From: Deltaproteobacteria bacterium
Lineage (GTDB): Bacteria; Desulfobacterota; Syntrophia; Syntrophales; UBA2192
Assembly: GCA_012728915.1 (NCBI GenBank)
Contig: JAAYEC010000067.1
Coordinates: 1-32,029, forward strand
Direction: 5' to 3'
Length of the DNA stretch: 32,029 bases
Shown: one piece after another, positions 1-16,111 of the stretch
How positions within the stretch are numbered: the first letter of the stretch is position 1
How the letters are laid out: each line of letters starts with the position of its first letter
The notes under the pieces: model-generated
Told to the model about the DNA's origin: nothing
Seen by the model: the letters and a program-made list of their open reading frames with translations, nothing else
Database searches by the model: none
Position numbers and translations under genes: made by a program

Positions 1-105
1 ATCCAGGCCGCCAAGGCCAGGGCCCGAGGTTACCGAACCATTAAGAACTTCATCACGATGATCTATCTCATCAGCGGCAAACTGGACTTCAGGCTACCCA
101 CTTGA
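1..105 (+). CDS. ISL3-family transposase, C-terminal fragment
   Basis: An open frame enters from the left edge and stops with TGA at 103-105, giving 34 residues. It contains ARGYRTIKNFITMIYLISG followed by KLDF, which resembles the conserved C-terminal tail of ISL3-type (IS204/IS1001/IS1165) DDE transposases. The catalytic domain is outside the window. The tail overlaps the 3' end of the opposing hsdS frame, as expected if the element jumped into hsdS. Family assignment rests on this short tail only and was made by recognition, not by search. Confidence 0.6.
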   Translation: MQAAKARARGYRTIKNFITMIYLISGKLDFRLPT

Positions 106-119
106 AACAGCGAGGAACC
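1..119 (+). mobile_element. Right end of an ISL3-like insertion sequence (partial)
   Basis: The first 119 bases read as the end of an insertion sequence: the last codons of a transposase, then a short non-coding end. The likely outer boundary is at about 119, where the hsdS reading frame on the other strand stops resembling HsdS. Read inward from that boundary on the minus strand, the end starts GGTTCCTCGCTG and continues to GTGGGTAG at about 94, which has the look of an ISL3-family terminal inverted repeat. The other end of the element lies outside the window, so neither the repeat pair nor the target duplication can be confirmed. Confidence 0.6.
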
Positions 120-962
120 ATATTTTTCAATCTCATTCTCATGGAGATTCATTCTCTTTAATTTCGTCCAATCAACTTTTCCATCTTGAATATTGTACAT
201 TCTCAGGCAGATTACCCCAGTGTCATTGTAGAATTCCTCAGGCTTATAAATACCATTTGACATTGATTCGATATAATCAGCAAGAAATCCCCAACTCCAT
301 GATACTGGCACGGGAAACGGATTACCATTATTGCTTGATCTCTCCACATCTGCCCTCTTGGTATCTGCTTGTCGCCAATCTGCCGTGAGGCGACCAGAGC
401 AGGCGGCTGCAAGGACGGATTGGCGGAAGCGTTTGAGGATGGCCGGGATTTTATCCAGCCGCTCCTTGCAGGCGTCGACTTTTGCCAGAAGTTGGTCCAG
501 CTTGGCGACGATGCGCTGCTGTTCATCTAAGGGCGCGAGTAAAACTGCGATGCCTTCAACATCTTTCTTAGAGATTGCCGTAAAAGTTGAGCCGGTGCCC
601 TGCTTGGAGAGAATCGGTTCAATGAAACGTAAATAGTTCAGTAGATATTGAGAGCTTGTGACCTGAGAAGGCCGAATAGCCGCCAAACCTCTGCCGATAC
701 AGGATTTCTCTTTATTAAGATTTGTCGGACCGACGGGCGCTCTGACCGAGAGCAAAATGTCTCCTGTCTCTGCGATCTTTTTCGGCTCATCGCAAAATTT
801 GACAACCCTAGGGTACAGAGCCTGAAATTCAGCTTTGCCCTGGAAGAACGGCAGTCCTCTCCCTTCGGAGTTATAGGAACTTGACGGTGGAGATTGTCCC
901 ATGACTATCTCTGAAATTTCGTTCAGAGGGATCTCCTGCCATCCTGTCGGCAAATTACTCAT
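63..962 (-). CDS. hsdS: Type I restriction-modification specificity subunit HsdS, truncated by IS insertion
   Basis: HsdS selects the DNA target for the HsdM/HsdR complex. The 299-residue frame starts with the typical LPTGWQEIPLNEI, has a first target-recognition domain (about residues 8-143), the central conserved helical region with LAPLDEQQRIVAKLDQLL and a coiled coil (144-197), then the start of a second recognition domain from about 215 (PVSWSWGFL). Real HsdS sequence appears to end at Tyr281; the last 18 residues are read from the inserted IS end. Full HsdS proteins are usually 400-450 residues, so most of domain two is lost. The ATG overlaps the stop of an hsdM-tail remnant (ATGAGTAA), the normal hsdM-hsdS coupling. 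Base composition is AT-richer than the rest of the window. A half-length HsdS can sometimes act as a dimer, so loss of function is likely but not certain. Confidence 0.88.
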   Translation of the reverse strand: MSNLPTGWQEIPLNEISEIVMGQSPPSSSYNSEGRGLPFFQGKAEFQALYPRVVKFCDEPKKIAETGDILLSVRAPVGPTNLNKEKSCIGRGLAAIRPSQVTSSQYLLNYLRFIEPILSKQGTGSTFTAISKKDVEGIAVLLAPLDEQQRIVAKLDQLLAKVDACKERLDKIPAILKRFRQSVLAAACSGRLTADWRQADTKRADVERSSNNGNPFPVPVSWSWGFLADYIESMSNGIYKPEEFYNDTGVICLRMYNIQDGKVDWTKLKRMNLHENEIEKYGSSLFQVGSLKSSLPLMR

Positions 963-1085
963 TCCGGCCGTTCCCGTTAGATTCTATCAACTGCAGTATC
1001 TCCCGCAACTCATCCACCACCGCATCCAGCTCCGTGATGGCCTCGGCGGCCAGGTCCTGTGGATCGGGCAGATTACTGGCCTCTT
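955..1085 (-). pseudogene. Remnant of a second hsdM 3' end
   Basis: On the minus strand, codons directly upstream of hsdS read as a close relative of the last 40 or so residues of the intact HsdM, with the shared core DLAAEAITEL and the ending SNGNG-x-NE, followed by TAA inside the hsdS start. It differs from the intact copy at several codons (DPQD for EPQD, AVV preceded by D for E, IES for IDS). An in-frame TAA lies just upstream of the similarity, so it is not a gene of its own. It looks like the tail of the hsdM that originally belonged to this hsdS. Confidence 0.85.
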
Positions 1086-1138
1086 TGGGTTACTTACAGT
1101 AGCTCAAAAACATGCTTGACATTCAGTCAAATCTGCAT

Positions 1139-1167
1139 ATTATATCTATTAAAGATTGACGTATTGG
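1139..1167 (-). promoter_or_regulatory. Weak candidate promoter for hsdS
   Basis: A perfect TATAAT is read on the minus strand at 1144-1139, about 180 bases upstream of hsdS and downstream of the DUF3800 hairpin. The hexamer 17 bases upstream (CCAATA, 1167-1162) is a poor -35. It could give hsdS its own transcript now that the insert separates it from hsdM, but AT-rich sequence makes chance matches common. Confidence 0.25.
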
Positions 1168-1190
1168 GATCGGGGTGTCCCCGGTCGGTA

Positions 1191-1214
1191 AAGGGTCTCC
1201 ACTTGGAGACTCTT
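1191..1214 (-). terminator. Hairpin terminator after the DUF3800 gene
   Basis: A 10-bp stem, AAGGGTCTCC against GGAGACTCTT with one G-T pair and the loop ACTT, starts 6 bases after the DUF3800 stop codon. On the minus strand the stem is followed by only a short T run, while on the plus strand a stronger TTTATTTTTAT tail follows, so it may work in both directions. Confidence 0.55.
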
Positions 1215-1219
1215 TATTT

Positions 1220-1852
1220 TTATGGAAATAACTTCAACCCCCAGCCCATGAATTCCCCTGCCTCGGAACAGTATAGCTTGTCCTTGATGATCTGGAATGG
1301 GATGTATGGCACTTCCGGGGCGAGGATGTATCTTGCGAGCGGATAGGCGCACAGGTCGGCGAGCTGCAGACCGATGATGTTGTCCCGTTTCGAAAAGAAG
1401 TCGAACTGAATGATTTTCTTCTTGAGTCTGTCCGCAGACACATAATAGGTCCCCCGGTCCATTGTCGAGTTAAAATGCGCCAAGAGCAATCTGTCTTCTT
1501 TCTTTCCTCTCTCCTCCACTGCGATCGCGACCGTGGAATCCGGATGAAGGCGATCCAGACAGAAGACCAATCTCTCTATGATGAAAGAGAGCGATAAGGC
1601 ATATGGATCCTTTGCCCCCCGCCCGTACCGTTTTACATGTTCCTCTTTGTGGATACCCGCCCCGATAATGTGAAACGTGGTTTTTTTGATCACGTCATTC
1701 AGTTCATGATAAAATTTTTCCTTGAGCCTTAAATCGAACAAAATCTGAAATGCATCTTGGCATTTCCGGATGTCCCTAGAGTGCAGGATAACTTTATCGG
1801 TCTTAAAAAACCTCTGCTTGAAGGCACGCATTTCTTCTTCGAGCTGGCGCAT
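1220..1852 (-). CDS. DUF3800 protein, N-terminally broken
   Basis: The open frame from ATG 1852 gives 210 residues with the C-terminal motif GLQLADLCAYPLAR typical of DUF3800, a family with a predicted RNase H-like fold often found beside defence genes. The family's other signature, the N-terminal YLDETGDHG, is encoded in the same frame but upstream of this ATG at 1945-1919. Between it and the only plausible start (ATG 1966, overlapping the hsdM stop) are the tandem stops TAA TAG at 1954-1949. No ATG, GTG or TTG lies between the stops and the motif. The encoded protein would therefore lack its first acidic motif and is probably inactive. It lies between hsdM and hsdS, is AT-richer than hsdM, and is flanked by duplicated hsdM tails, which suggests acquisition by recombination. 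Confidence 0.75.
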   Translation of the reverse strand: MRQLEEEMRAFKQRFFKTDKVILHSRDIRKCQDAFQILFDLRLKEKFYHELNDVIKKTTFHIIGAGIHKEEHVKRYGRGAKDPYALSLSFIIERLVFCLDRLHPDSTVAIAVEERGKKEDRLLLAHFNSTMDRGTYYVSADRLKKKIIQFDFFSKRDNIIGLQLADLCAYPLARYILAPEVPYIPFQIIKDKLYCSEAGEFMGWGLKLFP

Positions 1853-1958
1853 CCACTCATCTCCGATCAGACAGCCACACAGCAGGAAGAGCGGGAAATT
1901 CTTGTCGATGAAGTCCAGTCCGTGATCCCCGGTTTCATCGAGGTAGAACTATTATTTT

Positions 1959-3371
1959 TCACTCATTTTTCCCGTTACCATTCGAGTCGATCAATTCAAG
2001 AATTTCCCTTAGCTCATCCACCACCGCCTCCAGCTCCGTGATGGCCTCGGCGGCCAGGTCCTGCGGCTCGGGAAGATCGTCGGCGTCTTCCAGGGATTCG
2101 TCCTTCAGCCAGGTGATGTCCAGCTTGTACGCCCGTTCCCTGATCTCGCTGATGTGGAACCTGCGGAATCGGCCCTGCTCGCCCTGGTCCTTCCGCCGCG
2201 ATGCGCCATTGGGGTCGGCGCCGTAGCATTTCTCGAAGTCCGCGAAATGGGCCGGCGTGAGCGGGCGTTCCTTCTTCGTGATGCCCGGCACATTGGAGCG
2301 GGCGTCGTAGATCCAGACGTTCTCCGTGGGGTACCCCTTCTGGAAGAAGATCACGTTGGCCTTGACGCCCTGGCTGTAGGGGGTGAAGGTGCCCCGCGGC
2401 AGGCGCAGGATGGTGTGAAGCCCGCAGTCCTGCATGAGGATCTCGAACACCTCGCCCGCCTTGTCCTCGAAAAGGCAGTTGTCGGGCAGGACCATTGCGG
2501 CCCGGCCGCCGCGCTTGAGGATGTTCGTCACGTGTTGGACGAAGTTGAGCTGCTTGTTGCTGGTCTCGATGGTGAAGTCGTCGCGCACGGGCGCCTGGTT
2601 GGCCCCCTTCGTGCCGAAGGGCGGGTTGGTCAGGACGCAGTCGTACAGTTCGTTGCGGTTGGGCTCGTAGATGGAATCGCCGAGGTAGATCGTCGGCTCC
2701 AGGCCGTGCAGGAAAAGATTCATCAACGCGAGGCGCCGGGGGCGCGGCACGAGGTCCTGGCCGTAGTACGTGGCCGAGCGGACCCGCTTGAAGTCCTTCC
2801 GCTCGACCCCGCCCTGCTCCAGCAGCCACTCGTAGGCGCACATGAGAAAGCCTCCCGTCCCGCAGGCCGGGTCGCAGATCGTGAAGTCCCGGCTCGCCCT
2901 CGGGTCGGGTTTCATGACGCGGACGACGGACTGGATCAGAACCCGCGGCGTGAAGTACTGGCCCGCGCCCTTCTTGCCCTCGCTGGCCGCCTTTTCGAGC
3001 AGGCCCTCGAAGGCCGCCCCCTTCACGTCCACGTCCATGGAGGTCCATTCTTCCTCGTCGATCATGGTGATGAGGCGCTTCAGATTGACGGGGTTGTTGA
3101 ATCGGGGCATGGACTGGCTGAAGATATCGCCGAGAAGGCCCTTGGCCTCCCGAAGCCGACGGAGAATGTCCTGGTAGTGATCCGTCAGTTCCGTGCCGGA
3201 CTTTGCCTTCAGGCTGTCCCAGCCGCAGCCCTTCGGGATCTCGACGCCGCGCTCGTCGGCCATCTTCAGGAAGAGCAGGTAAGTGAGCTGCTCGATGTAG
3301 TCGCCGTAATCGATCCCGTCGTGGCGCAGGGTGTGGCAGAACCCCCAGAGCTTGTTGACGATGTCGGACAT
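1959..3371 (-). CDS. hsdM: Type I restriction-modification DNA methyltransferase HsdM
   Basis: N6-adenine methyltransferase of a type I system; two copies with one HsdS form the modification enzyme. The 470 residues carry the N-terminal HsdM helical domain (LWGFCHTLRHDGIDYGDY), the GQYFTP box near 137-142, the AdoMet-binding motif DPACGTGGF (167-175) and the catalytic motif NPPF (249-252). Length and motifs are complete, so this gene looks functional. The final codons overlap an ATG in the pattern ATGAGTGA, the usual coupling to a following gene; here that is the broken DUF3800 frame, not hsdS. GC content is high, like hsdR and unlike hsdS. A 396-base spacer with repeats separates it from hsdR upstream. 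Confidence 0.95.
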   Translation of the reverse strand: MSDIVNKLWGFCHTLRHDGIDYGDYIEQLTYLLFLKMADERGVEIPKGCGWDSLKAKSGTELTDHYQDILRRLREAKGLLGDIFSQSMPRFNNPVNLKRLITMIDEEEWTSMDVDVKGAAFEGLLEKAASEGKKGAGQYFTPRVLIQSVVRVMKPDPRASRDFTICDPACGTGGFLMCAYEWLLEQGGVERKDFKRVRSATYYGQDLVPRPRRLALMNLFLHGLEPTIYLGDSIYEPNRNELYDCVLTNPPFGTKGANQAPVRDDFTIETSNKQLNFVQHVTNILKRGGRAAMVLPDNCLFEDKAGEVFEILMQDCGLHTILRLPRGTFTPYSQGVKANVIFFQKGYPTENVWIYDARSNVPGITKKERPLTPAHFADFEKCYGADPNGASRRKDQGEQGRFRRFHISEIRERAYKLDITWLKDESLEDADDLPEPQDLAAEAITELEAVVDELREILELIDSNGNGKNE

Positions 3372-3504
3372 GGGCGGGGCGTTTCCTTCCTCGAAGTACT
3401 ATCGGAAGTGAGAGATTTTCTTCTATAACTCAAACGAAAAATGAGTCATTACGAGCCGAACCTCGTGAGGCGTGGTAATCTACAATTCTGAATGAAATAA
3501 CGAA

Positions 3505-3721
3505 GATTGCCGCGTCGGGCTCGCGTCCTCCTCCTAATGAACAACTTTGAGGGTCATTGCGGTGAGCCGAAGCCCCGAGCGAAGCGCGGGGGGAAGCGAA
3601 GCAATCTCAATCATTTCAGTGGATTGCCGCGTCGGGCTCACGCCCTCCTCGCAATGACGGATCGGCGCTGTTTCTTCCATCGATAACCCCGTCTCCGAAG
3701 GGGTCAGCGGCTCGCAATGAC
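3505..3721. repeat. REP-like palindromic intergenic repeat cluster
   Basis: The hsdR-hsdM spacer (3372-3767) holds no gene. It contains GATTGCCGCGTCGGGCTC at 3505 and again at 3622, each running into CCTCCTC and (G/T)CAATGA or AATGA. An inverted partner begins GTCATTGCG at 3553 and ends GCAATCTC at 3607. Together 3553-3658 form a large imperfect palindrome with GTCATTGC/GCAATGAC ends. A further CTCGCAATGACA lies at 3711. Such GTCATTGCGAGG...GCAATC units are scattered between genes in many deltaproteobacterial genomes. Confidence 0.7.
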
Positions 3722-3767
3722 AAAAGATTATTGCGGCAAAGTCTCCGGAAAGGGAATGGATTGATCC

Positions 3768-6449
3768 TTACGCCGCGATGGCGTAGTTGAACTGTTCAAT
3801 AAGCGTTTCGAGGCCTTCTGTAAAGACCTTTCTGGCGCGGCCGAGGCCGCCCTTCGCGGCGAAGGCGGGCGCGTTGTCGAAGTCGGCAAGCTCGATGGTC
3901 AGGTTCCGGACCAGGTGCTCGCGGATGAGCCCCATCCAGAGGCTCTGCTCCCCGGTGAGCTGTTTTCCCGCGGTCACCTTTGCCATGGCCCGGTCCGTCC
4001 GTTCCTCCGCCGTCAGGATGGGTTCCTCCTGCCGGGCGGCGTGCTTGACCATGGAGATGATGTCGGCCAGCGCCTTGTTGTAGACCAGCCTGTGGGCTTT
4101 CTGGAGGTCCTTCTCGTCGAAGCGGTTGAGGCTCAGCGTCCGCCTCAGTTCGTCCAGGGCCTCCGTCTTCCATCCCCTGGGCCGCTCCAGCAGGATGCGG
4201 ATGGCCTCGATCTGCTCGGGGTTATCCCGGACGAAGCGCGCGAAGGTGTCGAGATAGTCCTCGGGCTTCTGATACTCGCTTCCCCGGCGGATCATGACCC
4301 CCGAGGTGACCTCGTCGACGACCTCGTATCCTTTATAGAAGCTCTTCCGGGCGCGGGGGTAGTTGACAAGCAACTCCTGGAATTCCTTGTTTCGCAGGAT
4401 CTTCATGGTCTCGGTGAAGTCATTTTTGATTCGGTCGGGAAGGCTCCCGGCGAACTTCCCCATATCGCCGTCGGGGATGAAGGCCGCGAACTTCTCCCTC
4501 GCCTCGCCGCTCATTTCTTTTTCGATGCGTCTCAGGCGCTTCGCGAGCACCCGGACGTGGTAGTCCCGGTCGACGTTCTGGTAGATGTTCTCGATGACCT
4601 GCTCGATCGGCATGGGCTCCTTCCGGGGCGGCTCGACATCGAAGTCCGTCGTGTTCCGGAAATACTCGATCAGCGTCCCGTCGAAGCAGTCGAAGATGGT
4701 GAAGTGGGACTTGTCGATCTCGGGACACAGGCGGGTGCCCCGGCCCAGCATCTGGACCCAGAGGATGCGCGATTTCACGGGGCGCATGAAGACCACAAAC
4801 TCCAGGCTGGGGATGTCGACGCCGGTGCTCAGCATGTCCACCGTTACGACGACCTTCGGATTGGGCCGGTTGCGGAACTCGCGGATCTTCTGCAGGGGAC
4901 GATCCACGCTGGGACTGCCGGTGATCTTCTGGACGAAATCGTCGCCCTGGCCGAACTCTTCCCGGCAGAGCCGGACCAGCTGGTCGGCGTGCGAGATGTG
5001 GGGCAGGTCGTTTGCGGCGAAGATCAGGATCTTGGGGAAACGACCCGTTTCCTTTTCGTGCGCGTAGGCATACCGGGCGATCTCCCCGACGATTTTCCGG
5101 TTGCTGTCCGGAGCGGTGATGTCTTTCTCAATTTGCTCGGAGGAAAACTCCCGCTCGTCTTCGAGCTGATCGTAGACCTCCTGGCCCGTTTGCGTATCGA
5201 CGAGGCCGACCTGTTCGCCCTCCTTCAGGAACACGCCGTTCATCCGCACGTTGGACTTGATCCTCACGGCGTCGTAATCGACCAGGTAATCATCCAGAAT
5301 GGCCTGTTCGGTGGTGTAGCGGAAGACTACTTCATTGAACAGAGAGAGCGTATGCGGGGCGGGGGTTGCCGTGAGGCCGATCTTGACGGCATCGAAGTGG
5401 TCCAGGACGGCCCGCCAGGTCGCGGTGTCCTTTGCCGTGTAGCCCCGATGGCATTCGTCGGCGACAATGGCGTCGAAGGCATGGATCGGGATGTCGATCC
5501 GGTCGGTGTCGTCCTCGTCGTACTCGGGATCGCTTGCGCTCTGGGAGAAGGCGCCTTCCCGGCCGAAGAGATTGATCGCCATGCGCTGGATCGTCGAGAC
5601 GTAGACGAAGGTGTGGGTCGCCTGGGGGGAGGTCAGATAGGCACCCGGCAGCACCTTCGGGTCGTAGGGCTTGTCGTCGTCGAAGTCCTCCCGGCGGAAC
5701 CGCTGGCTGAAGACGTCGTACTCCTTGTCGAACTTGAGCCCCTTCGGCGTATTGAACGCGGCGAACTCCCGCACGGCCTGGGCGGCCAGGGCTCGCCGGT
5801 CGACGAGGAACAGGACCCGTCGAAAGGCCTTCGACTCGAGGAAGCGGTAGATCTGGGCTACCGTCATGAAGGTCTTTCCCGTGCCCGTCGCCATGGCCAG
5901 CAGCATGGCGCGCTTTCCCTTTGTGATGGCCGCTTCGGTCGCCTCGATGGCCGCTTTCTGGTAGGGCCTCAGCCGATCGATCGCGTTCGGGTTTTCACCG
6001 AACCACTCGTAACCGGACTGCCGGCCTAACCATTCCTCCAGGGCATCGGCCGTATGGAAATCATGGATTCTTCTCGAGACGTTCTTTTCGGCCCGGACAT
6101 CGAGAAACCAGATCACTTCGCCGTTCGAGGCATACAGGAAAGGAACGCGGTAGCCCCGCCAATTGCCGGTTCCGTCGTGTGCGCCTTTCGCGTATCGCTT
6201 GGCTTGCTCCAGTACGGTATAGGGCCCCACGCCGACTTTCTTCGCTTCGAGGATGCCCAGGAGTTTCCCCTTGACGAAAAAGGCGTAGTCGGCGGGACCG
6301 TTGGCGGTGGGATATTCCTCGACGGCGTGGCAGTGCAGTTGGGCGGGATCCAGGCCTTCCTTGAATTTGATGATTTCCCAGGACGGCTTGAGCGCGGCAA
6401 GCTTCCTGTTGATGCGGTCTCTTCTTGTCTGCCACTCGAGCTCGGTCAT
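3768..6449 (-). CDS. hsdR: Type I restriction enzyme subunit HsdR (EcoEI-like)
   Basis: The restriction and DNA-translocation subunit of the type I complex. In 893 residues it has an N-terminal nuclease domain with Asp54 and LEAKK (Glu68, Lys70) as the PD-(D/E)xK core; a superfamily 2 helicase motor with MATGTGKT (186-193), DECH (331-334), TATP, the later motif STGVDIPSLE and GRGTR; and a long C-terminal region resembling the EcoEI-type R domain. The start has a GGAGAGAGG ribosome site. All motifs are present, so the subunit itself looks intact. It needs an HsdM-HsdS core to act, and the only hsdS here is truncated, so restriction is probably off. A good promoter precedes it. Confidence 0.95.
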   Translation of the reverse strand: MTELEWQTRRDRINRKLAALKPSWEIIKFKEGLDPAQLHCHAVEEYPTANGPADYAFFVKGKLLGILEAKKVGVGPYTVLEQAKRYAKGAHDGTGNWRGYRVPFLYASNGEVIWFLDVRAEKNVSRRIHDFHTADALEEWLGRQSGYEWFGENPNAIDRLRPYQKAAIEATEAAITKGKRAMLLAMATGTGKTFMTVAQIYRFLESKAFRRVLFLVDRRALAAQAVREFAAFNTPKGLKFDKEYDVFSQRFRREDFDDDKPYDPKVLPGAYLTSPQATHTFVYVSTIQRMAINLFGREGAFSQSASDPEYDEDDTDRIDIPIHAFDAIVADECHRGYTAKDTATWRAVLDHFDAVKIGLTATPAPHTLSLFNEVVFRYTTEQAILDDYLVDYDAVRIKSNVRMNGVFLKEGEQVGLVDTQTGQEVYDQLEDEREFSSEQIEKDITAPDSNRKIVGEIARYAYAHEKETGRFPKILIFAANDLPHISHADQLVRLCREEFGQGDDFVQKITGSPSVDRPLQKIREFRNRPNPKVVVTVDMLSTGVDIPSLEFVVFMRPVKSRILWVQMLGRGTRLCPEIDKSHFTIFDCFDGTLIEYFRNTTDFDVEPPRKEPMPIEQVIENIYQNVDRDYHVRVLAKRLRRIEKEMSGEAREKFAAFIPDGDMGKFAGSLPDRIKNDFTETMKILRNKEFQELLVNYPRARKSFYKGYEVVDEVTSGVMIRRGSEYQKPEDYLDTFARFVRDNPEQIEAIRILLERPRGWKTEALDELRRTLSLNRFDEKDLQKAHRLVYNKALADIISMVKHAARQEEPILTAEERTDRAMAKVTAGKQLTGEQSLWMGLIREHLVRNLTIELADFDNAPAFAAKGGLGRARKVFTEGLETLIEQFNYAIAA

Positions 6450-7866: not shown

Positions 7867-9315
7867 TCACCGCGGGCTGAGGGACTCTGCTTTCGCATTG
7901 TTCGTCCGGTCCCGGTCGTCGATCCGGCCCGTCGCGTCGATGACGGCCCCGACGGTTGCGGGGCCATTCAGCGGCACGTCGAGCACGTACACGACGGAGG
8001 CACCCTCCCGGGACAGGAGACGCTGCGGGTCGAAGGCCGACAGGGGAGCCATGGCCCAGGAACGACCGTTCTGGGTCAGCTGCAGGACGGGCTGGTCCGC
8101 GCCGGAGAGCTGCCAGAGCTCCGGGGGCACGGGACCGCCGAGGTTGCGGATCTCCACGTTCACGCGACGCGCGGCGTTGAGCCAGATACGGGTAACCGCC
8201 AGGTCGGGCCGGTTCTCGGCGCCGGTGGCGGGGCCGGCCGGGTCGGAGGCGGAGAGCGCCGATCCGGCTTCGCCGCGCTTGTGGCGCTGACGCTGCTGTC
8301 CGGGGGCGAGCCGCTCGGCCTTGCGGTTGTTTCGCGTGTTTCCCTCCACGAGGCGGCCGTCGGGGTCGATCACCGCCGTCACCTCCGCCTCTCGGTCCAC
8401 CGCGAGATCGCTCACATACCGCAGGGTCTGCCGCCCGCTCTTCGAGAGCTTCATGCCCGGGTCGAATTCCTGGAGCGGAACGCTTTTTCGTTCCTGTCCA
8501 TCCACTTTGAGGACCAGCCGGATCGACTTCTCCCGGGGGTCGTTCCACCGAACCGCCGGGACGCCCCTCATGCTCGCGCCCGCGATCACGACCATGACCC
8601 GGTTGGCCCCGTCGAGGCCCAGCGACTCGACAGACAGGTCGGCCTTGACCTCGTAGCCCTTCTCGATTTCGGGGTCCACCTCCCAGGCCGTGCCGGGATA
8701 GTCGATCAGAAGCTTCCCCTTCACCGTCTGGGACGAGAAGTTCTGCAGGATGACGAGGTACCGGCCGGCTGTCGCCGCCAGTTCCGGATGGTCCACGGCG
8801 TGGTCCAGGCCGCTCATGGGCATGGACGACTCCATGACCTTATGACCGTGGTAGTAGGCCGGGGGCTTCTTTTTTTTGTCTCCAGTGAAGACATGCGTGA
8901 TGTTTTTCAGGTATGTCACGACCTCGCCGATGATCTTTTCCGAGACCTTGACCATGGGGTGGATCTCCATCACCGACTGTGCCGTTTTCGCGACAGGCCG
9001 TACCGATCGGTAGATCTGATCCCAGAAACCGGACGGCGTCTTCTTGGGATCGAAGATCCGGGCATCCACAAGTGTCGCCCGTATGCGGTGCTGGGAGGGG
9101 CCGGACCCGGACTCTACGGACACGATGACGCGGACAAGGCCCGGGCGGGTCAACTCGACGGGGTAATACAGATCGAAGGGGTCGCTCTTCGATCCGCCAT
9201 AAAGGGTGAAGGCCTGGTGGTAGCGCGCGTTGTCGCCCCAGTCGGCGGCAGGGGCTGCGGCGGGCGACATCATGCAAGCCAAAGCGAGCAAGAGAACAAA
9301 AAGAGAGCGCTTCAT
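7867..9315 (-). CDS. Exported protein with two CARDB-like modules
   Basis: A 482-residue secreted protein. The start at 9315 has AGGAGGAGGA just upstream and begins MKRSLFVLLLALACMMSP, a signal peptide cleaved near APA-ADWG. An N-terminal beta-rich region (25-220) contains a Lys run at 147-150. Residues about 225-335 and 370-477 look like two CARDB (cell-adhesion-related, Ig-like) modules: each ends in the same pattern, AVIDPDGRLVEGNTRNN and AVIDATGRIDDRDRTNN, which is the usual VD-x-x-x-x-V-x-E-x-x-E-x-N-N motif. A basic linker (QRQRHKRGE) joins them. No catalytic residues are evident; a binding or structural envelope role is likely. It is the first gene of the minus-strand exported-protein group. 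Confidence 0.75.
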   Translation of the reverse strand: MKRSLFVLLLALACMMSPAAAPAADWGDNARYHQAFTLYGGSKSDPFDLYYPVELTRPGLVRVIVSVESGSGPSQHRIRATLVDARIFDPKKTPSGFWDQIYRSVRPVAKTAQSVMEIHPMVKVSEKIIGEVVTYLKNITHVFTGDKKKKPPAYYHGHKVMESSMPMSGLDHAVDHPELAATAGRYLVILQNFSSQTVKGKLLIDYPGTAWEVDPEIEKGYEVKADLSVESLGLDGANRVMVVIAGASMRGVPAVRWNDPREKSIRLVLKVDGQERKSVPLQEFDPGMKLSKSGRQTLRYVSDLAVDREAEVTAVIDPDGRLVEGNTRNNRKAERLAPGQQRQRHKRGEAGSALSASDPAGPATGAENRPDLAVTRIWLNAARRVNVEIRNLGGPVPPELWQLSGADQPVLQLTQNGRSWAMAPLSAFDPQRLLSREGASVVYVLDVPLNGPATVGAVIDATGRIDDRDRTNNAKAESLSPR

Positions 9316-9969
9316 GTCTTTCCTCCTCCTGAAAGATGGGCCTGCCTCGAGAGGCACGGCATTCCCGTCCAATGGATTCCATTCGTGAATCCAAGACCCT
9401 GCGACGCAACACCGGGCAAATGGCATGCCGTTCGTCGATTTGCCTTGCATGACGAAAACCTGGCGGGCCACTCCCGACAGAGGGAGCCGCGGTTTCGTCG
9501 GCCGGTGCCCGTGAAAAAATGAAACAAAAGCAAGAATCCGGCCAACCTGGACGGAATGGGAAAACCGGCGGCCTGGAACCAACCGGGAGGACGGCCGGCA
9601 CCGCAGAATGCAAGACGGGTCAAGTTTCGTGCATGGCCGTCCGATTGAGAACGGGAATCCTTTGCGCCGATCGAGGCCGCGACGCCAGGCAGTGCGGCAC
9701 TTGGAAAGGAACGTGCGGCGGGAAGTTCAAGGAAAGGGGCAAACTTTCACGGTCCTTGCATGTCGGATGTCGAGCCTGTCCACATGCATCGGCTTTCGCG
9801 GCAGGAACACGTCCGTTCGCGCGGGTATCCGATCCGGTTCGGCCCTTGTGACCCGGCGTCCTCACACGCCGCGCCGGGGCACGGGCAAGCGTCAAGCAAC
9901 CGTCGGACAGAGCCGGTATTGCGGCAGGCAGGGAGTCAAGGTTCGTGCGGTTTGCGGGAGGGATTCGCA
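9316..9969. other. Long divergent intergenic region without a recognisable gene
   Basis: About 650 bases lie between the CARDB-type gene and the caspase-operon promoter. Open frames exist on both strands but none has a ribosome site with a protein-like sequence. Two overlapping small dyads (AATGGA-T-TCCATT at 9371-9383 and GGATTC...GAATCC at 9374-9392) lie about 60 bases ahead of the minus-strand gene and could bind a regulator. I see no riboswitch or RNA gene pattern. Confidence 0.5.
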
Positions 9970-9998
9970 TTGACAGGGACAAACCGATTTTCTATACT
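9970..9998 (+). promoter_or_regulatory. Strong sigma70-type promoter of the DUF4384-caspase operon
   Basis: TTGACA (9970-9975) and TATACT (9993-9998) are spaced by exactly 17 bases. Transcription would start near 10005, leaving a leader of about 120 bases before the first gene at 10128. Confidence 0.75.
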
Positions 9999-10048
9999 TC
10001 CCGCAGCTTTTCGAGGGTCGCCGGCTGCGGTGGGAAGGGTTGAGATGC

Positions 10049-10080
10049 CGCAGGCCCGGCAGGTGCCGGGTCTGCGTTTC
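10049..10080 (+). promoter_or_regulatory. Attenuator-like hairpin in the caspase-operon leader
   Basis: CGCAGGCCCGGC (10049-10060) pairs with GCCGGGTCTGCG (10065-10076) around an AGGT loop: a 12-bp stem with one G-T pair, followed by TTTC. It sits inside the leader between the promoter and the first gene. The T run is short, so it may be a weak terminator, an RNA-stabilising stem or a pause site rather than a full attenuator. Confidence 0.5.
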
Positions 10081-10127
10081 TGCAGCATACGAAAAAGGAA
10101 GACACAGATTCACAGGGAGGTTGCAGC

Positions 10128-11027
10128 ATGATGAGAAAGCATTGGGCGTTTCTCGCGGTCCTGACGTTCGTCTGCGCCATGATTCTCGTTCCCATGGCGG
10201 CGGACGCCCAGAAATCCCCCAAGGGGGCAAAGGCGATCTTTGACAGCGGCGACGGCGCGTCCGTACGGATGTCCTCCGGCGGGCCCGCACCGGCCGCGGC
10301 GACGGCGCCGGCAGCGGAGAAGTACGTCGGCATTTCCTACAAGATTGCGCTCATGAAGCCCAACGGCGATTTTTCGGTCGTCCCGAGGACGCGGACCTTC
10401 AAGTCCGGCGAACGGATCAAACTGCTCGTCCGCACGAACCGGGCGGGCTACCTCACGATCATGAACATCGGCCCCACGGGCAACACGCACGTGCTCTTCA
10501 ACGAGTACGTGGAGGCCAAGCAGCTCTACGAGATCCCCAAGGCGACCTCCCTGAGGTTTGCCGGCGCGCCCGGCACCGAGAAGGTCATGATCATGCTGTC
10601 CAACAACCAGAACCCGATCGTGGGCGGGCAGTCGACCACCGTCGCCAGCGCTCCTCCCATGGCGCCCCCGGCTGCCCCGCCGGCCATGCCTCCCCCTGCC
10701 GGCGATCCGGCAGGCTCTATGCCTCCGAGCATGCCTCCGCCTCCTCCCGGCCCCGTGGTGGACGCCGGCAGCAGCCTGCCCCCGCCCCCGCCGATGGCCA
10801 TTGCCAGCAGCATGCAGGGCTCCAAGGACATCGTGATGGAAGACCAGAACAGGACGGGCTATGCCGTGATCTCCCCCAAGGCGGGCTGGAAGCCCTCGGC
10901 CAAGGGGACCAAGGACATCATGCTGGAGAGCGATGTCCGCGACGGCAGCAACTACGGTGTCGTGCCGGCCTCGGCGATCGACGAGGGGGGCATCCTCACC
11001 CTGGACCTCAAGCTGACGCATCGGTAA
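10128..11027 (+). CDS. Secreted DUF4384 protein with proline-rich linker
   Basis: A 299-residue exported protein, first gene of the caspase operon. A signal peptide ends near ADA-Q (residue 27). Residues about 66-160 match the DUF4384 pattern (SGERIKLLVRTNRAGYLTI, then NIGPTGNTHVLFN), a beta-sandwich domain known mainly from proteins linked to bacterial caspases and kinases; its function is unknown. A Pro/Met/Ala-rich linker (176-222) follows. The C-terminus holds two copies of a short unit, KDIVMEDQ at 233 and KDIMLESD at 262, each followed by a Tyr-x-V segment; the same peptide occurs in the caspase two genes downstream. AGGGAGG precedes the ATG by 7 bases. The next gene is 16 bases away. 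Confidence 0.8.
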   Translation: MMRKHWAFLAVLTFVCAMILVPMAADAQKSPKGAKAIFDSGDGASVRMSSGGPAPAAATAPAAEKYVGISYKIALMKPNGDFSVVPRTRTFKSGERIKLLVRTNRAGYLTIMNIGPTGNTHVLFNEYVEAKQLYEIPKATSLRFAGAPGTEKVMIMLSNNQNPIVGGQSTTVASAPPMAPPAAPPAMPPPAGDPAGSMPPSMPPPPPGPVVDAGSSLPPPPPMAIASSMQGSKDIVMEDQNRTGYAVISPKAGWKPSAKGTKDIMLESDVRDGSNYGVVPASAIDEGGILTLDLKLTHR

Positions 11028-11043
11028 AAGGGGAGGGCTCTTC

Positions 11044-11787
11044 ATGAACGTCTTTCGCATCAAAACGCTCAGCCTGCTGATGGTCTGCGTCTTCCTGCTG
11101 TCCTCCTGCGCGTCGGTTCTTCCCGACCCGTCGCAGATCCGGACGGAGGAAGAGCGGATCGACGCCCGCAACAAGTGCATCGCCATGTACACGGCGGGAG
11201 GCGCCGCGGCGGGCGCCCTGGCAGGCGCCCTGATCGGCGGCGACTGGAAGGCCGCGGGCATCGGCGCCCTGGTGGGCGGGGGGTTCGGGTTTCTCGTGGC
11301 CTGGGGCCACTGCCTGAGCCTCTACTCGACCCTCCAGAGCACCCCCGTGGCGGGCTACCAGCAGACGGCCCAGCAGGTGGGCTACAACCCCTCCCAGGGC
11401 AACGTGACCAAGATCCAGGGATTCAACGTGACCCCGGGGTCGATCACCCCCGGCAAGACGGTCAACCTGGGCGGTTCCTACTACGTCATGGCGCCCCAGG
11501 GCTCCAAGGAGATGAAGGTAACCGAGACGCGCTACGTGAAGTTCTTCGACACGTCGAAGAACGAGTGGACGAACCTCGGGGCCGTGGACCAGGAGATTAC
11601 GGCGGCGCCGGGACTCCGCAAGGCCGACGGCAAGTTCGACATCCCCAAGGACGTCCCCGAGGGGAAGTACCGGATCGGCTTCAAGGTGGCCTCGGCGGGC
11701 AAGGAAGACGTCGTCGAGCGCGACCTTACCGTGAAGAAGGGCACCGCGTCCCTGCCGGTCCACATCGCCTGGAGCGAGAACCGCTGA
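11044..11787 (+). CDS. Glycine-zipper lipoprotein
   Basis: A 247-residue lipoprotein: signal peptide ending in the lipobox LSSC (Cys22). Residues about 50-85 are a glycine zipper (AGGAAAGALAGALIGG, then GIGALVGGGFGF), which forms paired membrane-inserting helices in outer-membrane proteins of the Gly-zipper families. The C-terminal half (about 115-245) is a beta-rich domain with no recognised family, ending in an Ig-like strand pattern (GKYRIGFKV, ERDLTVKK). GGGGAGGG lies 6 bases before the ATG. It lies 16 bases after the DUF4384 gene and 25 bases before the caspase gene, so it is almost certainly co-transcribed and would place part of the system at the outer membrane. Confidence 0.75.
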   Translation: MNVFRIKTLSLLMVCVFLLSSCASVLPDPSQIRTEEERIDARNKCIAMYTAGGAAAGALAGALIGGDWKAAGIGALVGGGFGFLVAWGHCLSLYSTLQSTPVAGYQQTAQQVGYNPSQGNVTKIQGFNVTPGSITPGKTVNLGGSYYVMAPQGSKEMKVTETRYVKFFDTSKNEWTNLGAVDQEITAAPGLRKADGKFDIPKDVPEGKYRIGFKVASAGKEDVVERDLTVKKGTASLPVHIAWSENR

Positions 11788-11812
11788 CGACTGACCACCA
11801 AGGGAGCCCATC

Positions 11813-13054
11813 ATGACAAAACGGGTCGCCATCGCGATGATCGTTCTGGCTGCGGCCATGGCGGCGCTCGCGCCGGGCGCCGCCATGGCGCAGTCCGCCG
11901 TGACGGACGCGCACATCCAGCAGGTCAACCGGCTCTTTGCGCAGAACGGCGTGCCCGGCGGGCGCGTCGAGCTCGACTCCTACGGGCGGCTGGAGCTCAA
12001 GGGGGAATACGAAGACGAAGTCCAGGTGGACCGGGCCTTTTCCCTGGCCCAGACCGTCGTGGGCGTGAAGTGGGTCTCGCCCGTCACGCCGGAGAACGTC
12101 AAGGTCAAGGAGTGGGAGAAGAGGCTCGGCTCGCTGTTCAGCCGCGCCGCCGTGCTGCAGCCGGGCGTGCGGGGGGACGGCCCCGTGGGTCCGATCCGCA
12201 ACCGCTACGGCCTCGTCGTCGGCGTCGGGAAGTTCAGAAACGGCATCACGCCCCTGCAGTTCGCCGTGAGGGACGCGAACCTCTTCTACCGGTTCCTCAT
12301 CGAGCAGGCGGGGTTCGCGAAGAACAACACCTATTTCCTTGCGGACCAGAACGCCACGTCCTCCAACGTCGTCCGCTACCTCAACGGCATCCGCAGCGCC
12401 GCGAAGGAGGACGACCTGGTCGTGGTTTACATGAGCAGCCACGGGACCCCTCCGGACAAGTTCGGGGGCGTCTACATCGTGACCTACGACACGGAGGTCA
12501 AACCCCGCGAGCGCGTCTGGCACACCTCGGTGGCCGAAAGCGCGCTGAAGGACTTCGTGGAGAATCTCAAGGCCAGGCGTCTCGTGATGATCCTCGACAC
12601 GTGCTACTCCAACGGCGCTTACCGGGCCATCCCGGGCTTCCTGCCGCCTGGCGGAAAATCGCTCGGCGTCGGCGACGCGGACGAGGGCTACGGGGTTTCC
12701 ACGGCCCAGGGCAAGAGGCTCTTCGGGGCCAAGGACATCGTCCTGGAGGACCAGCCGCGGCCGTCTGCGTCAACGGCGAAGAGCCTGGGTCCGCAGGAGA
12801 CCTACGGGAAGGTGCTCATCAGCGCAAGCAGCGCGGGCGAGAAATCCTGGGAGTCGGACCAGCTGCGCAGCAGCGTCTTCACCTACTACTTCGTGGACGG
12901 GATGAAGCGCCACGACGGCTCGGTGAAGGACGCCTTCGACTATTCGAAGCCCCGCACCCTGCAGCGCGTGCAGCAGGAGAAGGGGGCCGAGATCACCCAG
13001 ACCCCGCAGGCCATGGCCACCAACGAGAACTGGAACATGAAAGTGAAACGATAG
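11813..13054 (+). CDS. Secreted BON-caspase (peptidase C14) fusion protein
   Basis: A 413-residue exported caspase-like cysteine protease. A signal peptide runs to AMA-Q (residue 26). Residues 30-95 look like a BON domain (GRLELKGEYEDEVQVDRA, ending GVKWVSPVTP), usually a lipid- or envelope-binding module. The caspase p20 fold begins at RYGLVVGVGKF (131-141); the catalytic dyad is visible as His210 in YMSSHG and Cys264 in LDTCYSNG. The p10-like strand is VLISASSAGEKSWESDQ with VFTYYFVDGM. An insert with KDIVLEDQ (307-314) is shared with the DUF4384 protein. Prokaryotic caspases of this kind usually cleave after Arg or Lys; the substrate here is unknown. GGGAG precedes the ATG. Export, rather than cytoplasmic location, argues against a suicide-defence role. 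Confidence 0.88.
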   Translation: MTKRVAIAMIVLAAAMAALAPGAAMAQSAVTDAHIQQVNRLFAQNGVPGGRVELDSYGRLELKGEYEDEVQVDRAFSLAQTVVGVKWVSPVTPENVKVKEWEKRLGSLFSRAAVLQPGVRGDGPVGPIRNRYGLVVGVGKFRNGITPLQFAVRDANLFYRFLIEQAGFAKNNTYFLADQNATSSNVVRYLNGIRSAAKEDDLVVVYMSSHGTPPDKFGGVYIVTYDTEVKPRERVWHTSVAESALKDFVENLKARRLVMILDTCYSNGAYRAIPGFLPPGGKSLGVGDADEGYGVSTAQGKRLFGAKDIVLEDQPRPSASTAKSLGPQETYGKVLISASSAGEKSWESDQLRSSVFTYYFVDGMKRHDGSVKDAFDYSKPRTLQRVQQEKGAEITQTPQAMATNENWNMKVKR

Positions 13055-13083
13055 ACGAAACGGATCCGAAAGGAGGAGCATTC

Positions 13084-13698
13084 ATGAAGAGAACGATCAT
13101 CGCGTCCCTTGCCCTTGTCGGGCTCCTTGCCCTCGGCGCAGCCGGGTGCGGGCAGCAGTCCTCACCCCCTCCGCCCCCGCCCCCGCCTCCGCCTCCGGCG
13201 GCGCAGGCGCCCGCGCCGGCAGCCCCGGCCCCGGCGGCGGACCCCGGCCAGCCGTCCCTGGAAGTGACGCAGCACCTCAAGCAGGGCATGGCCTACGTCA
13301 GCACGGCCAAGAACGCGAACTCGCCGGCCATCTTCAACGAGAACATCAGCAACGCGATCAACGAGTTCTCCAACGCGATCAAGAAGGATCCCGGCTACGC
13401 CACGGCCTACTCGAACCGTTCCGTGGCCTACATGATGCAGAAGAAGTACAACCTCGCCCTCGACGACCTCAAGAAGGCGAAGGAACTCAAGCCGAACGAC
13501 CCGGCCGTCCGGTACAACATGGCCTCGTGCCATTCCATGATGGGCAACGTGGACCTGGCCTTCGTCGAGCTCGATGCCGCCCTGGCCAACGGGTTCAACG
13601 ACTACGACTCCCTCCGGAGGGACCCCGACCTCGCCAACATGAGGAAGCACCCGGACTGGAGGAAGACGCTCGAGAAGTACAAGGTGTTCATCAACTAG
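13084..13698 (+). CDS. TPR lipoprotein with polyproline stretch
   Basis: A 204-residue lipoprotein, last gene of the caspase operon. The signal peptide ends with the lipobox GAAGC (Cys22). Eleven consecutive prolines (28-38) and a Pro/Ala segment follow, probably spanning the periplasm or peptidoglycan. From about 60 to 165 there are tetratricopeptide repeats (AINEFSNAIKKDPGYATAY, then LDDLKKAKELKPNDPAVRY), a protein-binding scaffold. The start at 13084 is chosen for AGGAGG 7 bases upstream; the same frame is open further upstream inside the caspase gene but that part is not protein-like. A strong terminator follows after 84 bases. Confidence 0.85.
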   Translation: MKRTIIASLALVGLLALGAAGCGQQSSPPPPPPPPPPPAAQAPAPAAPAPAADPGQPSLEVTQHLKQGMAYVSTAKNANSPAIFNENISNAINEFSNAIKKDPGYATAYSNRSVAYMMQKKYNLALDDLKKAKELKPNDPAVRYNMASCHSMMGNVDLAFVELDAALANGFNDYDSLRRDPDLANMRKHPDWRKTLEKYKVFIN

Positions 13699-13782: not shown

Positions 13783-13817
13783 GCCCTGTCCGGCCCCGAG
13801 CCGGGCAGGGCATTTTT
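13783..13817 (+). terminator. Rho-independent terminator of the caspase operon
   Basis: GCCCTGTCCGGC (13783-13794) pairs with GCCGGGCAGGGC (13800-13811), a 12-bp stem with one G-T pair and a 5-base loop, followed directly by ATTTTT. This is the best terminator in the window and closes the four-gene unit. Confidence 0.85.
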
Positions 13818-13844: not shown

Positions 13845-14483
13845 ATGAACAGAGGGATCTTTCTTTTCGCGATCCTGTGTGTTGCTGTTGCAGCCAACGC
13901 CGGTGCGGCCGAGCGTGCAGCCTCGGATCCTGCGGCGGGGCGCCCGGCCGTCGCCGAGGAGACGGAACGGCAGAAACTCGCCCTGCGGCGCGCCGTCGCA
14001 GCGGGAATGCGGGACGAAGCCTATGCCCTCCAGCAGAAAGGGCAGATCCGGGACGCTGTCATCCGCTACCGTCAAAGCCTCGTGTACTGGCCGGACACGG
14101 GCCTCGAGGCCTACGTCGCGCCGCTCGAGCGCAGATCCGGGTTCCAGCTCACGCAGTACAGGCCGGAAGCGCGGCAGGCCGCGGCTGCAGCCCCGACGGC
14201 GCGCGCCTACGCCACGGTGCGAAACCGTTCGGCGCACGACATCACCCTCGCGGTCCGCGGGGAGGCGCCCGAAGCGGCAACGACGGTGCGGGCGGGCGAG
14301 ATCCGGATCCGGCCCGTCTGCCCGGGCGCCGCGGGGGAGGTTACCTTCGAGGTCTCGCGCGGCGGGCAGATCCTCGAGACGCGGACCTGGAAAGGCAGCC
14401 CGGGCTCCCCGGGCGTCGTTCCGGTCCTGCTCTACGATGATGCCCTGCAGGGCAGGCTCTTCGTCATGACGGGACTCCGCTAG
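13845..14483 (+). CDS. Exported protein with a short TPR-like segment, unknown function
   Basis: A 212-residue protein with a signal peptide (FLFAILCVAVAANAGA, cleavage near AGA-A). Residues about 45-85 form a helical TPR-like unit (LQQKGQIRDAVIRYRQSLVY). The C-terminal half is beta-rich and resembles a small carbohydrate- or metal-binding sandwich (TVRNRSAHDITLAVRGEAP), but I recognise no family. The start ATG directly follows the perfect palindrome GGGAGCGCTCCC, whose GGGAG half is the only ribosome site. It lies after the caspase-operon terminator, so it probably has separate transcription. No promoter was clear in the 27 bases between terminator and ATG; read-through is possible. Confidence 0.65.
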   Translation: MNRGIFLFAILCVAVAANAGAAERAASDPAAGRPAVAEETERQKLALRRAVAAGMRDEAYALQQKGQIRDAVIRYRQSLVYWPDTGLEAYVAPLERRSGFQLTQYRPEARQAAAAAPTARAYATVRNRSAHDITLAVRGEAPEAATTVRAGEIRIRPVCPGAAGEVTFEVSRGGQILETRTWKGSPGSPGVVPVLLYDDALQGRLFVMTGLR

Positions 14484-14608: not shown

Positions 14609-16111
14609 ATGCCGGACGGGATGACGCGTATCTGCCGCAAGCGCGGCGCCTGTGTGCGAAGCGTATGTCGTGTGCTGCTGATCGTCTTGCTGTGCGGGGT
14701 TGCGGCCTCGTGCGCGACGAACCCCGTCACCGGCAAGGAAGAATTGATGCTGGTCTCCGAGGACGAGGAGATCAAGATCGGCAAGTCGGTTTACCGCGAC
14801 GCGCTCTGGAGCGCGGAGGGCGGAGGGGGGGAGTACCTGGACCCCCAGCTCAAGCGCTACCTCGAGGGGGTCGTCATGCGGCTGCACAGGGTCTCGCACC
14901 GGCCGAACCTGCCCCTGTCCTTCACGGTGCAGAACAGCTCCGTGCCCAATGCCTGGGCAATCCCGGGCCACGTGGTCATGACCAGGGGGTTGCTGGCGGG
15001 GCTGGAAAACGAGGGGGAGTTCGCCTACGTGATGGGACATGAGATCGGCCATGTCTCCGCGAGGCACTCGGCCAGGCAGATGTCCAAGAACATGATGCTG
15101 AGCCTTGCCCTGGGCCTTGCGGCCATCTCCATCGGCGATGCGGACACGAGGGAGGCCGTCGTCGGGCTCGGTGCCCTGGGGGGCCAGCTTCTGCTGCTGA
15201 AATACAGCCGGGACGACGAGCTCGAGGCCGACCGGCTGGGCGTCGAATACATGAGCCGCCTGGGCTACAACCCGAACAACGCCCTGGGCGCGCACCGCAG
15301 CCTCGAGAAGGTCTACAAGGAGTACGCCCGCTCCGTGGGACAGGAACCGACCGAGAGGGGGTTCTTCGAGGAGCTGCTCTCCACGCATCCGCGCACGTCC
15401 GTGCGGATCGATGAGATCCAGCAGATGATCGAGTCTGCGCCGAGGGCGGCGCCCGCGGGCGACGGATCGAACCGGGCGGCCTACCAGTCCATGACGGCGA
15501 ATCTCCGCAGGACGCACCGGGTCTACACGGAGTACTACGACAAGGCCGTCAGGGCCTTCGAGAAGAACCGCCTGGCCGAGGCGAACAACCTGGTGAGCCG
15601 GGCGATCTCCGAGGAACGCTATCAGCCCCCGTTCTACGCCCTGGCGGGATACATTTACCTCAAGCAGAACCGGGGAGCCGACGCCGAGCGCTATTTCCGA
15701 GGCGCCCTTTCGCTGCAGGCCAACTACCAGCCTGCCCTGCGGGGACTGGGCATGATGAACTACGGCGCCAAGAACTATGCGGCGGCCATCGAATACATGA
15801 AGAAGGCCGCGCAGATCTTCCCCGGTGACGCTACCGCCCAGCGCCTGCTGGGCATGAGCCATTACCGGACCTCGAACTGGCGCGCGGCCATCGACCCGCT
15901 GCGCGCGGCTGCCGCTGCAAACCCCAAGAACAGGACGATCCACGGAATCCTGGGTCAGTGCTATGAAAACGTCAACGACCGGCGGGCGGCCTATGAGCAG
16001 TACAAGCTCCAGCTCCAGGTGGCCCCGGACAGCGACGGGGGGCGCCTGGCGGCCTCCCGTGTGCAGGCCTGGAAGGCCCAGTTCGAGCCGGAAACACCAA
16101 AAAAGAAATAG
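14609..16111 (+). CDS. M48 family metalloprotease lipoprotein with TPRs (BepA-like)
   Basis: A 500-residue zinc metalloprotease. A basic N-terminus, hydrophobic segment and AASC (Cys35) suggest a lipoprotein. The M48 domain has the zinc motif HEIGH (144-148) and the downstream Glu ligand in the stretch DDELEADRLG (202-211). The C-terminal 200 residues are TPR repeats (for example AEANNLVSRAISEERYQPP and ALRGLGMMNYGAKNYAAAI). This is the architecture of BepA/YfgC-type periplasmic proteases that degrade or help assemble outer-membrane proteins. GAGGAG precedes the ATG by 6 bases. The 125 bases upstream hold no gene. The next gene starts 10 bases after the stop and is probably co-transcribed. 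Confidence 0.92.
   Translation: MPDGMTRICRKRGACVRSVCRVLLIVLLCGVAASCATNPVTGKEELMLVSEDEEIKIGKSVYRDALWSAEGGGGEYLDPQLKRYLEGVVMRLHRVSHRPNLPLSFTVQNSSVPNAWAIPGHVVMTRGLLAGLENEGEFAYVMGHEIGHVSARHSARQMSKNMMLSLALGLAAISIGDADTREAVVGLGALGGQLLLLKYSRDDELEADRLGVEYMSRLGYNPNNALGAHRSLEKVYKEYARSVGQEPTERGFFEELLSTHPRTSVRIDEIQQMIESAPRAAPAGDGSNRAAYQSMTANLRRTHRVYTEYYDKAVRAFEKNRLAEANNLVSRAISEERYQPPFYALAGYIYLKQNRGADAERYFRGALSLQANYQPALRGLGMMNYGAKNYAAAIEYMKKAAQIFPGDATAQRLLGMSHYRTSNWRAAIDPLRAAAAANPKNRTIHGILGQCYENVNDRRAAYEQYKLQLQVAPDSDGGRLAASRVQAWKAQFEPETPKKK

Follow-up and report, generated by a model that had tools for sequence, protein, structure and literature searches.

Four genes of a Syntrophales bacterium, termed here A, B, C and D, form a well-supported, co-inherited unit of the cell envelope. 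Its exported caspase (C) carries, in the linker between the p20 and p10 parts, a GxK-DI motif that recurs in the exported DUF4384 protein (A) encoded at the start of the same operon. The arrangement is real and conserved, and is not described in the open-licence literature searched; its parts come from known families. The GxK motif common to A and the linker of C is the new, testable point. It had been missed in the initial annotation of the window (the whole stretch of DNA analysed, 32,029 nucleotides), and is the most specific mechanistic hint that the locus provides.

Organization of the operon

The four open reading frames lie on the forward strand (Table 1) and are separated by 16 (A-B), 25 (B-C) and 29 (C-D) bases, as the initial annotation had it. 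Shine-Dalgarno-like sequences are present at all four. The strong promoter and the strong terminator claimed for the operon were both located. Two promoter-type sites of the same quality, matching 11 of 12 consensus positions, occur in the region, against a mean of 0.2 in shuffled sequence. Of 17 loci scanned, counting the window, 12 have a sigma-70-type promoter at -136 to -174 from the start of A, and terminator-like hairpins, judged by eye, were found 3' of D in the relatives inspected. Sigma-54 sites were sought at the loci with no consistent finding. The promoter is separated from gene A by a leader of about 120 bases (10005-10127), and long leaders recur in the relatives. A conserved 5' UTR RNA was considered and rejected, the leaders of the relatives aligning poorly. 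Export signals, assigned by eye, are present on all four products, Sec-type in A and C and lipoboxes in B and D, and hold in the orthologs; this again agrees with the earlier description.

Table 1. Coordinates of the operon, its sequence elements and adjoining genes (positions in the window unless a locus is given)
Feature	Position	Strand	Remarks
Sigma-70-type promoter, TTGACA-17-TATACT	9970..9998	+	11/12 consensus match
Gene A, exported DUF4384 protein	10128..11027	+	299 aa; Pro-rich linker, C-terminal GxKDI repeats
A, N-terminal motif copy GAKAIFDSG (Lys35)	10224..10250	+	GAKA[IL]FDSG[DE]G in 17/17 orthologs
A, motif copy 1, GSKDIVMED (Lys233)	10818..10844	+	GxKDI in 18/18
A, motif copy 2, GTKDIMLES (Lys262)	10905..10931	+	GxKDI in 18/18
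Gene B, lipoprotein (lipobox LSSC)	11044..11787	+	247 aa; glycine-zipper-like segment, conserved C-terminal domain without family assignment
Gene C, exported caspase (C14)	11813..13054	+	413 aa; BON-like N-terminal segment (aa 36-88)
C, extended p20-p10 linker	12650..12781	+	Invariant lysines GGK(282)SLG, G[AS]K(307)DIV, K(323)S
Gene D, TPR lipoprotein (lipobox GAAGC)	13084..13698	+	204 aa; without GxK motif
Intrinsic terminator	13783..13811	+	Strong
Gene E, short relative of the giant TPR/PKD exported protein	13845..14483	+	Probably a separate unit
Giant TPR/PKD protein, other loci	L039:2039-11014; L004:15-3935; L096:10663-16002; L143:4915-13863

Conservation and distribution

The A-B-C-D order is found in 18 environmental bacterial genomes (that of the window and 17 more) from at least three families. 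All four genes are present in order, 1-33 bases apart, wherever a contig end does not interrupt; at one of the 18 loci the contig ends after C. The 17 further C orthologs are 59-88% identical to C of the window. Relatives and the GTDB contigs supplied full-length C orthologs in the A-B-C-D order from the genus of the window, from a Syntrophobacterales MAG and from another family of its order. A phylum-wide profile search yielded two more loci in a distant family, making eleven in that family overall. The same order in 18 genomes shows that the arrangement is not due to chance. The genes flanking the operon in the window are not retained at the operon outside its genus, and the recurrence of A-B-C-D while the flanks change marks it as a conserved unit. 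In a phylum sample of 395 genomes the profiles of A and C match the same three, and A is found only where C occurs. The earlier proposal of one envelope unit is thus upheld by the order kept across families, the changing flanks, the kept promoter, the export signals and the occurrence of A only with C; the neighbourhood is kept beyond close relatives. The physical complex and the anchor and scaffold roles that were proposed with it are putative.

Correlations between the four proteins in their pairwise identities are 0.89-0.97, as expected for genes inherited together. C of the window is 64-68% identical to C of the distant family but 59-61% identical to C of f19, a family of the window's order, a hint of horizontal transfer. 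A plasmid origin was considered and rejected; there was a single partial DUF4384 match on a plasmid.

The caspase and its linker

C matches the Pfam caspase model PF00656 with 59.8 bits (cut-off 21.4), and all 18 members match it. The catalytic dyad, His210 (12440-12442; SSHGT) and Cys264 (12602-12604; D[TA]CYS), is invariant in the 18 sequences, as are the S1 acids Asp154 and Asp262 and also Ser208. Asp154, Ser208 and Asp262 align with Asp95, Ser156 and Asp211 in the S1 pocket of TbMCA2, which takes a basic P1 residue (PMC4357240, PMC6426788); the position of the TbMCA2 pocket residue Cys92 is taken by Ala151. The best matches to C among solved structures, as judged by sequence, are metacaspases. 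Enzymes of the C14B group cleave after Arg or Lys (PMC5756287), and by analogy C would be expected to do the same.

Of the family labels given to the operon earlier, DUF4384, caspase and TPR score above their cut-offs, whereas BON and glycine zipper fall below those of Pfam. The match of C to the BON model PF04972 is 15 bits (cut-off 27), 4 of the 18 members match at E<=0.1, and residues 26-89 show a weak match to OsmY. A helix-strand-strand-helix arrangement of the BON-like segment is predicted with moderate confidence and is taken as a suggestion of the fold.

Counted from the catalytic Cys up to the core strand that follows, the linker of C spans 65-68 residues; in seven further caspases of the order it spans about 30. 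The order's other caspases (L130-L136), several of which have lipoprotein-type N-termini, possess short linkers that often contain G[AT]RP and not GxKDI. Other caspases of the order that adjoin DUF4384 genes likewise have short linkers, and the GxKDI element was not found in them. In the linker of the yeast metacaspase CgMCA-I, cleavage follows Lys263 and Arg307; the active site of a plant metacaspase is entered and blocked by its linker residue Lys225 (PMC9622860).

The DUF4384 protein and the shared motif

A matches the DUF4384 model PF14326 with 45.1 bits (cut-off 27); a search of solved structures found no relative of it. AlphaFold2 models of A and C, made from four sequences, are poor (mean pLDDT 40 and 37). 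The C-terminal stretch of A, which bears the GxKDI copies, is apparently unstructured, a tentative judgement from modelling. A has four invariant lysines, three of which are situated in the GAKA copy and the two GxKDI copies.

The sequence G[AS]KDIV is present in all 18 C proteins and two GxKDI copies are present in all 18 A proteins; D has none. For the strict motif, shuffling of the window proteins gave p<5e-5 for A and 6.5e-4 for C. When the whole profiles of C and A were compared without guidance, the match fell on the GxK-DI element with modest significance (P 0.001 and 0.0036), and its score exceeds those of all 150 column shuffles. Within the genome of the window, G[AST]KDI is found in A and C only, and GxKDI was absent from the 177 kb scanned, mostly around other caspases and DUF4384 genes. 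The lysine is invariant in all copies and the residue before it varies. Conservation in A and C extends past the lysine (DIxxE...Y-x-V), while the GAKA and GGKSL copies retain little besides GxK and a hydrophobic residue. In the L038/L039 lineage the tail of B also carries a copy of the GxK[DS]I/L type (GAKSLG/GAKSVG), which is confined to this lineage, and A and C have one extra copy each.

The lipoproteins B and D

The lipobox residue C22 of B follows the signal sequence in all 18 orthologs, as judged by eye. The best match of B to the Pfam glycine-zipper models is 20.6 bits (cut-off 28.9), and sub-threshold matches of this kind occur in all 18 orthologs; the search of solved structures gave nothing beyond a glycine-zipper match at E 0.08. 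B belongs to a wider family that is also present without a caspase. The window's genome encodes a second lipoprotein of the family (L125:4101-4703) at a site with no caspase nearby. D scores above the cut-offs of TPR models, with 71.5 bits (cut-off 32) for the NCBIfam model TPR_END_plus.

Neighbouring genes

In three lineages the operon has next to it the gene for a giant exported protein of up to 2991 aa, with a Cys-rich block, PKD domains and TPR repeats; gene E of the window is a short relative of this protein, and a full copy lies on another contig of the same genome, beside a lipoprotein with a transglutaminase core. A profile of the middle region of this protein matches 11 of the 16 operon-bearing genomes tested (12 with a fragment at the contig end of L038) against 3 of 20 without the operon, counts that are not independent because the genomes are related. 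The giant neighbour was considered as a further carrier of the motif and rejected, as it is without GxKDI and gives isolated loose matches only.

Upstream of the operon, a divergent gene on the reverse strand (7867-9510) encodes an exported CARDB-domain protein, which adjoins the operon in L037 too. A BepA-like M48 metalloprotease with TPRs (14609-16111), a second envelope protease, is encoded just downstream and is kept beside the operon in the genus only. The beginning of the window (63-6449) is occupied by the type I restriction-modification genes HsdS, HsdM and HsdR, the first two of which are separated by a DUF3800 gene.

Proposed mechanism and alternatives

From sequence we propose, with about even confidence, that C is an envelope orthocaspase activated by cleavage of its linker after Lys, and that A is its dedicated substrate or pseudosubstrate. 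The exported C would act at the periplasmic face of the envelope, where it may associate with the membrane through its BON-like domain, alongside the lipoproteins B and D and the exported partner A. It would be a zymogen, with the GxK sites in its long inter-subunit linker and a linker lysine held in or near the active site until cut. A displays GxK-DI twice, together with the related GAKA copy, and C would bind A at these sites; A would then either be cut by C as a substrate or hold C as a pseudosubstrate inhibitor. We infer the cleavage after Lys, the substrate or inhibitor direction, the membrane attachment, the complex with B and D, and the trigger. With the motif in the linker of C and the same element in A, recognition of GxK by C in both proteins is the simplest reading. 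A narrower version, in which C, once self-activated at its GxK linker sites, goes on to cut A at two or three copies, is put forward more tentatively. Several points weigh against the proposal as a whole: the structure models are poor, the pocket Cys of TbMCA2 is replaced by Ala, the element (DIxxE...Y-x-V) is longer than a protease site needs to be, the significance of the full-profile comparison is modest, and B and D are without the motif in most genomes, so that the proposal does not account for their part.

Because the element extends beyond a lysine site, a structural or docking role is a serious rival, if on balance an unlikely one. GxK-DI...Y-x-V would then be a structural repeat or a docking strand and not a cleavage site, the lysine being structural; A might pair by a strand with the caspase linker, or both segments might descend from one repeat. 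The conservation of DI, E, Y and V beyond the lysine in both proteins agrees with such a role, and so does the C-A profile alignment, which spans the linker and the core strand that follows. However, the element of C is located in the linker, the site of processing in caspases and metacaspases, the lysine is invariant in every copy next to a variable residue, and little besides GxK and a hydrophobic residue is kept in the GAKA and GGKSL copies. The motif similarity could also be incidental, in a housekeeping operon of co-regulated envelope products that act separately, for example in lipoprotein or periplasmic turnover. The relatives of B without caspases (one of them in the same genome), the generic TPR lipoprotein nature of D and a sigma-70 promoter suggestive of ordinary expression fit this, but the patchy distribution, with A and C in the same genomes, and the restriction of the motif to A and C make it improbable. 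Least probable by far is an anti-phage or death-type effector system. C does match the generic caspase model of PADLOC (E 3e-10), the distribution is patchy and a restriction-modification system is present in the window; however, all four products carry export signals, a sensor or nucleotide-binding part is lacking, and no defence gene family recurs beside the operon across lineages.

Relation to known systems

C resembles the orthocaspases of the C14B group, such as MaOC1 of Microcystis, in the p20 fold, the His-Cys dyad and the acidic S1 residues, and by analogy Arg/Lys specificity and autoprocessing would be expected of it. Unlike them, it is exported, has a BON-like N-terminal segment and an extended GxK linker, and is encoded in a fixed operon of four genes, the others specifying separate envelope partners. 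DUF4384 is an accessory domain of cyanobacterial orthocaspases (PMC8283722), and caspase and DUF4384 genes are also neighbours elsewhere in this order; in the present operon the two are separate exported proteins that share a motif. Metacaspases are the sequence-closest solved structures to C; AtMC4 and CgMCA-I, in which a linker Lys blocks the enzyme or is cut in activation (PMC9622860), are eukaryotic, calcium-activated and without an operon partner. The likeness to OsmY-type BON envelope proteins is weak, and in C the segment, below the Pfam cut-off, is fused to a protease.

Significance

Only one orthocaspase had been characterised biochemically by the time of a 2017 review (PMC5756287), and little is known about which proteins bacterial orthocaspases cut in nature. 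Here a partner, candidate sites and a predicted specificity are found together in one short operon. If the substrate reading is correct, C would be a bacterial orthocaspase whose natural substrate is encoded beside it in the genome, in a self-contained protease-substrate circuit of the envelope, and caspase-type proteolysis would be placed in the bacterial envelope.
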